This document shows, in pieces, positions 2,475 through 59,235 of a stretch of DNA of 64,000 nt; position 1 is the first letter of the stretch; each line of letters opens with the position of its first letter. The DNA is taken from assembly GCA_021818955.1 (NCBI GenBank), contig JAKASR010000009.1, positions 1-64,000 on the forward strand, given 5' to 3'. Origin of the DNA: Acidobacteriota bacterium. Its GTDB lineage: Bacteria; Acidobacteriota; Terriglobia; Terriglobales; SCQP01. The position numbers were made by a program, and so were the translations under genes. The notes under the pieces are model-generated. The model did no database searches, had not been told where the DNA came from, and worked only from the letters and a program-made list of their open reading frames with translations.

Positions 2475-3170
2475 ATGGAAGCACAAGAGCATCGCCGAGG
2501 TGCGGCACGGCCGCTTTTACTTTTAGGCGCTGACGCTTTCGCCAAGGTCCGGCCGAAACCGGACGCAGGGCGAATACTCATGGCGGCCGAAAGTTTATTG
2601 TCGTTCATCGGCGCGGGACCTAATAGGAACCCCGCGCTTCGGCCTGCGATTTCGGACGAAGACTGCTGTCCGACTCGGCCGTTAACGCTTCTCGAGCGTA
2701 AAACCGGTTTGATTTCTTGGGAGCGGCTGGGGCCGAAGCTTTTCCACCTCGCCTCCGACGTGTTTACCGCGATTTATGGCCGATTTCCGGTTTTTGGAGA
2801 ACTGCGCTCCGCGGCAGGCATTATTTTTTCAGGAGACGCGGTGTGGATGGTCGTGCGCAGCGATGGCCGCGGGCGGTGTTTTCCCGGCGGCATATCCTCA
2901 TTTCGCGAAAACGAAGGAGTAACGCTGCGGCGGGAAGTGCAGGAAGAGACGGGATTGGAAATCGTCTCCAGCCGCTTGCTTTGGACCTACCACAGCCATG
3001 TTTATCTACCTAGCCAAGTTGCAGTATTTCTAGCCGAAGCCCAAGGCACGCCGCGCGATTCCTGGGAAGGCCGGGTGGAACTGGTACCCAGGTCCGAACT
3101 CCGCAAGAACCTGTTCGCTATCCATCAACCTATTGCGGACTATTTAGAAACCGGGGAAATGCACGCCTAA
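2475..3170 (+). CDS. NUDIX hydrolase (true start probably downstream of the repeat, e.g. TTG at 2709)
   Basis: NUDIX box-like GGISSFRENEGVTLRREVQEETGLEI. The first ~72 codons of the ORF are repeat sequence. Confidence 0.8.
   Translation: MEAQEHRRGAARPLLLLGADAFAKVRPKPDAGRILMAAESLLSFIGAGPNRNPALRPAISDEDCCPTRPLTLLERKTGLISWERLGPKLFHLASDVFTAIYGRFPVFGELRSAAGIIFSGDAVWMVVRSDGRGRCFPGGISSFRENEGVTLRREVQEETGLEIVSSRLLWTYHSHVYLPSQVAVFLAEAQGTPRDSWEGRVELVPRSELRKNLFAIHQPIADYLETGEMHA
2502..2690 (+). repeat. Dispersed hairpin repeat, copy 1 (full length, short-core form)
   Basis: GCGGCACGGCCGCTTTTACTTTTAGGCGCTGACGC...GTCCGACTCGGCCGTTAACGCTT; near-identical to the other copies listed. Confidence 0.95.
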
Positions 3171-3185: not shown

Positions 3186-3372
3186 GCGGCACGGCCGCTT
3201 TTACTTTTAGGCGCTGACGCTTTCGCCAAGGTCCGGCCGAAACCGGACGCAGGGCGAATACTCAAGGATACCGAAAATTATTGTCGTTCATAGGCGCGGG
3301 ACCTAATAGGAACCCCGCGCTTCGGCCTGCGATTTTGGACGAAACTACTGCCCGACTCGGCCGTTAACGCTT
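3186..3372 (+). repeat. Dispersed hairpin repeat, copy 2 (full length)
   Basis: Same head and tail as copy 1, about 500 bp downstream in direct orientation. Confidence 0.95.
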
Positions 3373-3542: not shown

Positions 3543-3827
3543 ATGGCTCTGTGTCCGAAATGTGAGGCCGATCTCGACCTGGACGAAGAGGAAGCGAGCG
3601 AGGGTGCAATGATTACCTGTCCCGATTGCGGCGCCGATTACGAGGTGGTGAACGCACAACCACTTGAACTGGAAGCGCAGGACGATGAGGAACTGGAGGA
3701 CGACGCAGAAGATTTGGACGAATACGACGACGATGATGATGATGATGACGACGATGATGAGGAAGATCTAGACGAGGACGAAGACGATTACGACGAAGAC
3801 GAGGACGAGGACGAAGATTACGGATGA
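3543..3827 (+). CDS. LysW-like zinc-ribbon protein with long Asp/Glu C-terminal tail
   Basis: CPKCEADLDLDEEEASEGAMITCPDCGADYEVVNAQPLELEAQ resembles the LysW/ArgW carrier fold, followed by ~50 nearly all-acidic residues ending EDYG. Confidence 0.65.
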   Translation: MALCPKCEADLDLDEEEASEGAMITCPDCGADYEVVNAQPLELEAQDDEELEDDAEDLDEYDDDDDDDDDDDEEDLDEDEDDYDEDEDEDEDYG

Positions 3828-7467: not shown

Positions 7468-7689
7468 GCGGCACGGCCGCTTTTACTTTTAGGCGCTGAC
7501 GCTTTCGCCAAGGTCCGGCCGAAACCAGACGCATTGCAAATACTCATGGCTGCCGAAAGTTTAATGTCATTCATAGGCGCTGGACCTAATAGCAACCCCG
7601 CGCGAAAGCGGCCTGCGGGCATGGTTAGAGGCAATTTCTTTGAAATTGCCAAGGACGAAAACTGCTGTCCGACTCGGCCGTTAACGCTT
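7468..7689 (+). repeat. Dispersed hairpin repeat, copy 3 (with one GGCAATTTC..GAAATTGCC arm)
   Basis: Head, core, AGGCAATTTCTTTGAAATTGCC arm and tail. Confidence 0.95.
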
Positions 7690-7722: not shown

Positions 7723-7800
7723 GCGGCACGGCCGCTTTTACTTTTAGGCGCTGACGCTTTCGCAAAGGTCCGGCCGAAACCGGACGCAGGGCGAATACTC
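7723..7800 (+). repeat. Dispersed hairpin repeat, copy 4 (5' module only)
   Basis: GCGGCACGGCCGC...GGGCGAATACTC, then unique sequence. Confidence 0.93.
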
Positions 7801-9098: not shown

Positions 9099-9320
9099 GC
9101 GGCACGGCCGCTTTTACTTTTAGGCGCTGACGCTTTCGCCAAGGTCCGGCCGAAACCGGACGCAGGGCGAATACTCATGGCTGCCGACAGTTTATCGTCG
9201 TTAATAAGCGCGGGACCTAATAGGAACCCCGCACGAAAGCGGCCTGCGGGCATTGCTTGAAGCAATTTCTTCGAAATTGCCAATGACGAATACTGCTGTC
9301 CGACTCGGCCGTTAACGCTT
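9099..9320 (+). repeat. Dispersed hairpin repeat, copy 5
   Basis: Full head, core, AGCAATTTCTTCGAAATTGCC arm, tail. Confidence 0.95.
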
Positions 9321-13739: not shown

Positions 13740-13817
13740 GCGGCACGGCCGCTTTTACTTTTAGGCGCTAACGCTTTCGCAAAGGTCCGGCCGAAACCGG
13801 ACGCAGGGCGAATACTC
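13740..13817 (+). repeat. Dispersed hairpin repeat, copy 6 (5' module only)
   Basis: GCGGCACGGCCGC...GGGCGAATACTC, same 3' boundary as copies 4 and 11. Confidence 0.93.
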
Positions 13818-14901: not shown

Positions 14902-15246
14902 GCGGCTCGGCCGCTTTTACTTTTAGGCGCTGACGCTTTCGCCAAGGTCCGGCCGAAACCGGACGTAGGGCGAATACTCATGGCTGCCGGGCATTGCCGG
15001 GCGCAATTCCTGCGGAATTGCCGGCTTGCCGGGCGCAATTCCTGCGGAATTGCCGGCTTGCCTGGCGCAATTCCTGCGGAATTGCTTGGTATTGTCGTTA
15101 ATAGGCGCGGGGCCTAATAGGAACCCCGCGCGAAAGCGGCCTGCGGGCATGGCTTGAGGCAATTTCTTCGAAATTGAAAATGTTTAGGCAATTTCTTCGA
15201 AATTGCCCATGACGAAAACTGCTGTCCGACTCGGACGTTAACGCTT
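14902..15246 (+). repeat. Dispersed hairpin repeat, copy 7 (longest, expanded arms)
   Basis: Three tandem GCAATTCCTGCGGAATTGC hairpins (15003-15085) and two GGCAATTTCTTCGAAATTG arms (15156-15210) between head and tail. Confidence 0.95.
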
Positions 15247-15278
15247 TACGGCGTTAATTGGCCGCATCTTTTTAGCGT

Positions 15279-21922: not shown

Positions 21923-21990
21923 GCGGCGAGGGCGCTTTTATTTTTGGACGCTGGCGCTTTCGCAAAGGTCCGGCCGAAGCCGACCGCGAT
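21923..21990 (+). repeat. Dispersed hairpin repeat, copy 14 (degenerate 5' module)
   Basis: GCGGCGAGGGCGCTTTTATTTTTGGACGCTGGCGCTTTCGCAAAGGTCCGGCCGAAGCCGACCGC. Confidence 0.8.
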
Positions 21991-35597: not shown

Positions 35598-35786
35598 GCG
35601 GCACGGCCGCTTTTACTTTTAGGCGCTGACGCTTTCGTAAAGGTCCGGCCGAAACCGGACGCATTGCGAATACTCATGGCTGCCGAAAGTTTATTGTCGT
35701 TAATAGGCGCGGGACCTAATAGGAACCCCGCGCTTCGGCCTGCGATTTCGGACGAAAACTGCTGTCCGACTCGGCCGTTAACGCTT
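35598..35786 (+). repeat. Dispersed hairpin repeat, copy 9 (full length, short-core form)
   Basis: Near-identical to copy 1. Confidence 0.95.
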
Positions 35787-38010: not shown

Positions 38011-38169
38011 GCGGCGGCGCGGACGCTTTGCTTTTTCGGCGCTGACGCTCGCCCCATCCAGCCCCTTCCAAGCGCAGCCGGGTGAGGACTCCGACTTTGC
38101 CTTTCCGGGCGCACGGCTCGCGAAATTGCCTGGGACAAGAACCACGGCCCGACCCGGCCGTGAACGCTT
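38011..38169 (+). repeat. Dispersed hairpin repeat, copy 10 (divergent subfamily)
   Basis: GCGGCGGCGCGGACGCTTTGCTTTTTCGGCGCTGACGCT...CGCGAAATTGCCTGGGACAAGAACCACGGCCCGACCCGGCCGTGAACGCTT. Confidence 0.75.
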
Positions 38170-41489: not shown

Positions 41490-41568
41490 GCGGCTCGGCC
41501 GCTTTTACTTTTAGGCGCTGACGCTTTCGCAAAGGTCCGGCCGAAGCCGGACGCATGGCGAATACTCA
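41490..41568 (+). repeat. Dispersed hairpin repeat, copy 11 (5' module only)
   Basis: GCGGCTCGGCCGC...GGTCCGGCCGAAGCCGGACGCATGGCGAATACTCA. Confidence 0.93.
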
Positions 41569-56151: not shown

Positions 56152-56370
56152 GCGGCTCGGCCGCTTTTACTTTTAGGCGCTGACGCTTTCGCAATGGTCC
56201 GGCCGAAACCGGACGCTTTGCGAATACTAATGGAGACCGAAAATTTATTGTCGTTAATAGGCGCGGGACCTAAAAGAAACCCCGCGCTTCAGCTTGCGGG
56301 CATGGCTAGAGGCAATTTCTCCGAAATGGCCAATGACGAATACTGCTGTCCGACTCGGCCGTTAACGCTT
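56152..56370 (+). repeat. Dispersed hairpin repeat, copy 12
   Basis: Head GCGGCTCGGCCGC..., core, GGCAATTTCTCCGAAATGGCC arm, tail. Confidence 0.95.
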
Positions 56371-56398: not shown

Positions 56399-57769
56399 TT
56401 ACACCAGATTCAGTCCGACGCGCGCCATGGCGCGGCGGGGGGCGGGATGGTGCATGAACCATTGCCAGGGGCGGCCGGAGCGGAAGTTTTCCGCGCTGAG
56501 GAGGGTGATGCCCTGATTAATGCCCAGCACATAGGGGCTGGCCCAACCGGTGAGCGGGTTGAAGGCGTCACAGAAGCCGTAACGTCCCCAGATTAGCGGC
56601 AGGCGCGGGCCCCAGGCATGGAGCATGTGGCTCATATCGCGCAGGCAAAGCCGCGGGGTAAACATGAGCGAACCGGCGGCGGCGCAGGGGACGATGGTGC
56701 CATCAATCGCCGCCTCGCTTACCGGCCCCGCCGGCGGGCCGCCCCAGGCGACATAGCCGTCGCGGCTCTCGGAGGCGGTAATGCCCCAGGTCTGACTGCC
56801 ATAATCGCGAAAGCGGCGGCCGAGCGTGGCGCACCAGGCGCGTTGCGCGCGCGTGGCGGCGATGGAATTTGCGAAATAATTCAGCCGTTCGCCCCGCGTG
56901 TCGCGCCGATGGCGGTAATCCACCCAGGCGTGCGAGTACTGATGGATGAACAGCGGCGCAGCGCCGGCGACATAACGAAAGCCGGCAAATTCGACCCAGG
57001 GGCGGTCAATCGCCTGCCAGGCTTCGGCCGGTATGGGATGCGACTCGGAGCCGATCGCCAGCAGATAGAGCAAAGTCTCTTCACAATAACTATCCCAGCG
57101 AGCGGCGAGAAAGCCGGAACCGGAAAGCCAGCCCATGGAAAGGCGATGGGGATCACCGGCCAGCATCCAGCGAAAATCGACGCGGCGGTAAACCGCCTCG
57201 GCCAATTGAGCCAGGCGCGGCTGGGCGGGAAAGGCGGCGCCAGCGGAAAGCATGCCGGCCAGCAGCAACGCCGTATCCATGGAGGAGACTTCACTGCCGG
57301 GCGCCGGCCGGCCGCCGGCCATGTCGTAATAGTGGTAAAACCAGCCGCGTTGATGGCGGGCATCGGCGGCAAAGAATTCGAGCGTGGCCAGCGCGCGTTG
57401 CTCGGCCAGCGGGCGCGGCACCCAGCCGCGGGCAGCGGCAATGGCCAGCGCGGTCAAGCCGAAGCCAGTGGCGGCAATGCTGGCCAAGTCCAGCCCGGCA
57501 CTCGCGCCACGGGCCAAAGCGCGATCGCGCACCAAGCCGGTGCGCGCATCGGCGTTTTCCCAGAAATAGCGAAACGCGCGGCGCGAAAGTTCTTCCAGAA
57601 AAGCGTCATTGGCCGGCAGCAACGGCGCCGGCTTGGCGGCCAGGTGTAAGGGAATGGTGGAATTCGAGTTCGGCAGGAGGCGGTCTTTCAAGGCCGGCGA
57701 GATTTGGCCTTTCAGTCCGAGGGCGGCCAGGCCCAGCCCGGCGCCGCGCAGAAACGAGCGCCGCGGCAT
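56399..57769 (-). CDS. Tat-exported glucoamylase-like protein (COG5368-type)
   Basis: MPRRSFLRGAGLGLAALGLKG; RRAFRYFWENADARTGLVRDRA, YYDMAGGRPAPGSEVSSMDTALLLAGML, WGITASESRDGYVAWGGPP; ORF extension to 58114 is repeat-derived. Confidence 0.85.
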   Translation of the reverse strand: MPRRSFLRGAGLGLAALGLKGQISPALKDRLLPNSNSTIPLHLAAKPAPLLPANDAFLEELSRRAFRYFWENADARTGLVRDRALARGASAGLDLASIAATGFGLTALAIAAARGWVPRPLAEQRALATLEFFAADARHQRGWFYHYYDMAGGRPAPGSEVSSMDTALLLAGMLSAGAAFPAQPRLAQLAEAVYRRVDFRWMLAGDPHRLSMGWLSGSGFLAARWDSYCEETLLYLLAIGSESHPIPAEAWQAIDRPWVEFAGFRYVAGAAPLFIHQYSHAWVDYRHRRDTRGERLNYFANSIAATRAQRAWCATLGRRFRDYGSQTWGITASESRDGYVAWGGPPAGPVSEAAIDGTIVPCAAAGSLMFTPRLCLRDMSHMLHAWGPRLPLIWGRYGFCDAFNPLTGWASPYVLGINQGITLLSAENFRSGRPWQWFMHHPAPRRAMARVGLNLV

Positions 57770-57822
57770 CGGACGACCACCGTTGGCCTGAGCCGGAGAG
57801 TCCGGTTCGGCGGGGCAAGACG

Positions 57823-58040
57823 CGGCACGGCCGCTTTTACTTTTAGACGCTGACGCTTTCGCCAAGGTCCGGCCGAAACCGGACGCATTGCGAATACTCA
57901 TGGCTGCCGGGCATTGCCGGGCGCAATTCCTGCGGAATTGCTTGGTATTGTCGTTCATAGGCGCGGGACCTAATAGAAACCCCGCGCTTCGGCCTGCGAT
58001 TTCGGACGAAAACTGCTGTCCGACTCGGCCGTTAACGCTT
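57823..58040 (+). repeat. Dispersed hairpin repeat, copy 13 (one GCAATTCC..GGAATTGC arm)
   Basis: Head, GCAATTCCTGCGGAATTGC arm, core, tail. Confidence 0.95.
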
Positions 58041-58323
58041 AATGATGTAAGAGAATCCGGGCAACTGCCGCTGGCGCGCAGGCGCTTGCCGCAGGCCTGT
58101 TTCGCATCGGCCATGGCGCTTACCGGACCTCAGCTTAGCCGCACGACATGCGCCCACTCGCTCAGGGAAAAGCATTAGATTGAGCGAGTTTTTTCGTTTA
58201 AAGAAAAAGCTACCAGCTACCAGCGCCAGCTCAAGGAAGAATTGCTTGCATGAAGGCAAGGCTGAACTTGCCACGATTGCGAGGCTCTCCAGCGCATAGG
58301 AGAGGATCAGTTAAAAACCCGGC

Positions 58324-59129: not shown

Positions 59130-59235
59130 GAGGCAATTCAATTTTTCGAAATCAAGCATGCTGAAGGCAAATATAATTCTGCGAGATTGAGCCTGCCCAG
59201 CCGAAAACTACTGTCCGAGGCGGCCGTGAACGCTA
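59130..59235 (+). repeat. Dispersed hairpin repeat, copy 15 (5'-truncated, degenerate)
   Basis: AGGCAATTCAATTTTTCGAAATCAAGCATGCTGAAGGCAA...CCGAAAACTACTGTCCGAGGCGGCCGTGAACGCT. Confidence 0.7.

Follow-up and report, generated by a model that had tools for sequence, protein, structure and literature searches.

A dispersed, non-coding, intergenic repeat with an arm-free consensus of 189 bp occurs in hundreds of copies in the genome of this acidobacterium. On balance, it is probably a non-autonomous mobile repeat, recognised as a fold of single-stranded DNA and inserting in that form, without target duplication and with an orientation following the replication strand, in the manner of IS200 and REP elements. 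A search of the 3.80-Mb genome for a 30-base core of the repeat, allowing up to 3 mismatches, gave 305 occurrences, against 0 for the reversed core used as a control. Sampled stretches of 1.97 Mb held 308 elements or fragments; these stretches were partly picked where copies were known, so that the figure of about 600 obtained by scaling should be read as an upper estimate, and the genome total is put at roughly 300 to 600 copies.

In the 64-kb window (the whole stretch of DNA analysed), 15 copies or fragments were located using blastn, all on the plus strand, with genes running both ways (Table 1). The element is modular: the smallest unit (left unit, consensus 1-78) comprises 78 bp, with hairpin P1 followed by P2 enclosing P3, and was also found solo and in head-to-tail tandem elsewhere in the genome; in the long form, this short unit continues on the right into a second structured domain, containing P0, P4, P5 and P6. 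Hairpins are located at both ends, P1 at one and, at the other, P2/P3 in the short unit or P0/P5/P6 in the long unit. Arms are inserted at consensus 88-95 and 147-153, two variable stretches between the domains. One full copy (57822-58040) sits within a predicted 571-aa ORF (56399-58114, minus strand), of which the start may be overcalled or in which the copy may be read through. A GACGAY-type tandem repeat at 3717-3822 would, if translated, likely give an acidic Asp/Glu-rich stretch.

Table 1. Copies of the repeat in the 64-kb window and parts of copy 7.
Feature	Position	Strand	Remarks
Full copy, no arms	2502-2690	+	
Full copy, no arms	3186-3372	+	
Full copy, one right arm	7468-7689	+	
78-bp short unit, solo	7723-7800	+	
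Full copy, one right arm	9099-9320	+	
78-bp short unit, solo	13740-13817	+	
Copy 7	14902-15246	+	full-length element, 3 left and 2 right arms
Left unit of copy 7 (consensus 1-78)	14902-14979	+	
Hairpin P1	14902-14914	+	GCGGC-NNN-GCCGC at 5' end of copy 7
Hairpin P2 enclosing P3	14939-14973	+	P3 = GTCCGG-CCGAAA-CCGGAC
Left arm 1	15003-15021	+	GCAATTCC-TGC-GGAATTGC
Left arm 2	15035-15053	+	GCAATTCC-TGC-GGAATTGC; unit identical to that of arm 1 over the full 32 bp
Left arm 3	15067-15085	+	GCAATTCC-TGC-GGAATTGC; unit 88% identical
Central hairpin P4	15105-15131	+	T-A replaces C-G (compensatory) in another genus
Right arm 1	15159-15177	+	last stem pair broken
Right arm 2	15188-15206	+	period 29 from right arm 1
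Right tail (consensus 154-189)	15211-15246	+	most of helix P6, 3' sides of P5 and P0
3' junction of copy 7	15247-15250	+	NNNG, here TACG
Decayed left fragment	21923-21982	+	
Three-arm copy without central hairpin P4	30268-30486	+	
Full copy	35598-35786	+	99% identity to 189-nt consensus
Decayed copy	38014-38169	+	left 38014-38049, right 38121-38169
78-bp short unit, solo	41490-41567	+	
Full copy, one right arm	56152-56370	+	
Full copy, one left arm	57822-58040	+	
Right-tail fragment	59202-59234	+	

In a sequence-only reading, copy 7 had been described as having three arms on the left, spaced at a period of 32 bp, and two on the right; both arrays were confirmed on the sequence. Its near-identical 32-bp left units are as recent tandem duplication would give. 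Counted by strand, the window holds 25 matches to the pattern GCAATTNCNNCGNAATTGC with up to 2 mismatches, where 0.6 would be expected; none of the shuffles attained this count, and the DNA fold of copy 7 scored z = -7.1. The accompanying statement that the other copies hold no more than one arm per position is incorrect even within the window, where the copy lacking P4 has three arms; copy 7 is not exceptional and represents one point in a distribution of arm counts.

Counting of arms per copy, which the same reading had proposed as a check, was performed on the 127 full copies in the 1.97 Mb of sampled stretches, 106 of which were scorable. Numbers were widely spread: 32 of the 106 had no arms, and the range per full copy in this sampled half of the genome was 0-5 on the left and 0-10 on the right. 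For the 223 arms inside full copies, divergence from the consensus per site was 0.027 in stems and 0.250 in loops, a variation about 9-fold lower in stems; the stems are largely constant and the loops variable, as had been suggested from the window, and the outcome named there as a refutation, stem mutations accumulating as fast as those in loops, is not what was observed. The contrast is not produced by the cut-off, since the distribution of arm match scores was bimodal. Of the arms in this set, 115 had T-A at stem pair 7, 100 had C-G and about 9 a mismatch. The near-identical 32-bp units, the spread of arm counts and the conservation of stems support the proposed preservation and duplication of hairpins as modules. 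Candidate stand-alone arms away from elements were mostly weak background matches.

The 3' end of the element (CTT; CTC in short units) is followed by three free bases and then G, a junction common to short and long units. G was found at position +4 in 163 of 175 long or right-end copies and in 37 of 41 short units (about 90-93%), and the same NNNG junction was read from the sequences of copies in the sister species and in another genus. The junction has one strong position, the G at +4, with weaker neighbouring positions; the target of IS200/IS605 usually comprises 4-5 bases. Comparison of the flanks of copies revealed no target-site duplication. At one orthologous site, a single example that is alignable only imperfectly, the element is present in the sister species and absent here, and the unoccupied sequence already has the corresponding C. 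A right-end fragment in another stretch (L014:19180-19283) almost forms a palindrome (AAGCGTAAACGGCCGAG ... CTCGGCCGTTAACGCTT), resembling a head-to-head join of two right ends.

Neighbouring elements within 30 kb had the same orientation in 254 of 279 pairs and the opposite orientation in 25 (1.97 Mb). This polarity extends over blocks longer than 100 kb and is independent of the direction of flanking genes, which point every way. Orientation agreed with the AT skew at fourfold sites in 87% of elements, and in 92% where the skew was strong; between genes running with and against the elements, skew differed by 0.137 (GC) and 0.319 (AT), and neither interval included zero. The elements therefore follow an asymmetry between strands, for which replication is the simplest source. 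More than one orientation switch occurs in several contigs, so that one origin and one terminus are insufficient without rearrangement or misassembly.

In IS200/IS605, the transferred strand lies in the lagging-strand template. Indications of fork direction, taken from the usual strand compositions and from marker genes, disagree for the present genome. The written strand would be lagging by the position of dnaA (C36), the S10 ribosomal cluster (C25, which has no elements and was placed by skew), atp, L20 and the rRNA operon; the sign of the GC skew indicates the opposite fork direction, and tRNAs are split 11 to 7. In the sampled stretches, the AT skew at fourfold sites was very strong (up to +0.7 per 10 kb) and the raw GC skew weak, and GC and AT hints on the leading strand conflict. 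A possible origin is marked by three DnaA-type boxes within 40 bp (C36:40824-40861), next to a gene that reads like dnaB and at a distance of about 6 kb from dnaA; this cluster is the only one in the 1.97 Mb, but no flip of the skew occurs at it. The search for a dif site yielded nothing convincing.

Conservation of the fold was assessed by aligning 21 sequences, which represent four species of three genera (G000, the host, and G001 of the same genus, G003 and G004). In the right-domain helices, 90.7% of cells pair, versus 31-38% with partners slid, and 36 two-sided changes were counted versus 11.3 after shuffling; the shuffle control exaggerates significance, the sequences being related and hence not independent events, a fault of which the slid control is free. 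These helices are kept across three genera by compensatory changes. Variation in columns of low polymorphism was 0.031 for paired versus 0.047 for unpaired positions. The covariation is equally compatible with RNA and DNA. An excess of A-C over G-T mismatches was rejected as proof of a folded strand, as unpaired positions show the same bias, which is mutational.

Carriers of the repeat belong to the genus of the host and to two further genera of its family; they are G000, G001, G003, G004 and G008, the latter a second species of the genus of G004; those with names are uncultured Acidobacteria MAGs. No relative of the repeat was found in 395 other genomes drawn across the phylum or in the phages and plasmids searched. 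Searches of the host genome, of which the assembly is 96% complete so that absence is not proof, gave no match to the Y1 transposase (PF01797) and no Y2 transposase of the kind that IS91 requires. Y1 genes of relatives showed no correlation with carriage of the element, and none adjoins it. A cognate RAYT gene flanked by repeats was not found. Two-sided elements with a cargo gene were considered and dismissed, the enclosed genes being ordinary housekeeping genes and their position being read as coincidence.

Several known systems resemble the element in part. IS200/IS605 combines hairpin recognition, a short 5' target, lack of duplication and an orientation following replication (PMC7290912; PMC5371812), with which the end hairpins, absent duplication, junction and polarity of the element are in keeping. 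In Solibacter usitatus, class 3 genes accompany atypical hairpins, which have a 5' CnGA foot and number about 600 copies (PMC6006769). As the latter case and REP families show, high-copy hairpin repeats can accompany Y1 enzymes. With REP/BIME and their RAYT, the element shares hundreds of intergenic hairpin units, modular composites and presumed single-stranded mobilisation (PMC3733652, PMC6006769); unlike them, it forms multi-hairpin units of 78-189 nt instead of 20-65 nt, head-to-tail and strand-polarised instead of alternating, its consensus shows no GTAG (or CGTC) foot by eye, and the host has no RAYT hit. Ends-only derivatives of IS200/IS605 (PATE) resemble the element in having hairpins at their ends and in leaving no target duplication, and its junction and strand polarity may correspond to their short target at one end and replication-linked orientation (PMC7290912, PMC5371812), whereas for the present element no autonomous parent and no 4-5-base target were found, and an extra internal domain and expandable arms are present. 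The structures of class 3 TnpA-Y1 in Solibacter usitatus are similarly acidobacterial, numerous and atypical in secondary structure (PMC6006769), but no class 3 gene was found here and the 395-genome sample, which may not include Solibacter, held no homologue of the element. MITEs of DDE transposons are also short, non-coding, high in copy and lineage-specific; in contrast to these, the element lacks terminal inverted repeats and target duplication and shows strong strand polarity. The element would appear to work like IS200/IS605 and REP but cannot be filed as a member, because the defining enzyme was searched for in the host and not found, and carriage is not matched by the Y1 genes of relatives.

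If the element is described in the manner of IS200/IS605, the strand transferred would be complementary to the written one, starting with GAGTATTCGC (78-bp unit) or AAGCGTTAACGG (189-bp unit), lying 3' of a short target that has C at -4 and ending with hairpin P1. The number of perfect GCAATT arms would rise and fall in units of 29-32 bp, for which replication slippage or unequal exchange is the most likely cause. It is conceivable, though rather unlikely, that the element represents a distinct class of single-strand-targeted mobile element that uses neither Y1 nor Y2 and depends on another protein or the replication machinery, with the arms as expandable cassettes tuning recognition of the folded strand.

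Strong polarity over such long blocks, together with the conserved structure, would also be expected of strand-oriented sites that the host maintains to organise or replicate its chromosome, as signals for protein binding, priming or segregation, in which polarity is selected and not a by-product of insertion. This we regard as unlikely, as two unit lengths have clean, independent boundaries at a target-like junction, and decayed fragments, tandem copies, the empty orthologous site and a related genus with only about 9 close-matching copies fit mobile repeats. The compensatory changes across three genera could instead reflect function as RNA, the element then being a small RNA with structure, a terminator or a processing site that has spread by copying; P4 and P5 have conserved loop letters, and P1 followed by T-rich sequence is terminator-like. 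The orientation of the element, however, ignores the direction of flanking genes and follows strand blocks, its flanks contain no conserved promoter, and no covariance model in Rfam matched the repeat, which makes an RNA element quite unlikely.

Insertion of single-stranded DNA, the reading preferred here, includes as a sub-case a REP family moved by a diverged class 3 Y1 enzyme encoded in an assembly gap or scoring below the cut-off. The precedent in Solibacter usitatus (PMC6006769) speaks for it, and repeats often break assemblies; with zero Y1 candidates in the host in a first-look search, and neither a class 3 gene nor a CnGA foot demonstrated, it is nevertheless considered improbable. Some group II introns show replication polarity, and the many left-only copies with one fixed end might accordingly be short, truncated products of a retroelement copied via RNA and reverse transcribed at replication forks. 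This is very improbable: left-only copies share their end position and junction, as units and not random truncations would, and a reverse transcriptase was rejected as mover, none being common to the carriers, of which two have no RVT_1 match and one a different enzyme, while the only RVT_1 match of the host reads as an RT-Cas1 fusion. The latter (G000 C28:104801-105406) lies in a 698-aa ORF beside a Cas6-like ORF and suggests a CRISPR system able to acquire spacers from RNA.

Hundreds of strand-polarised, structured repeats without a visible mobilising gene constitute a natural test of the share of replication in the spread and orientation of such elements. Where raw GC skew is weak, they could act as a strand marker.
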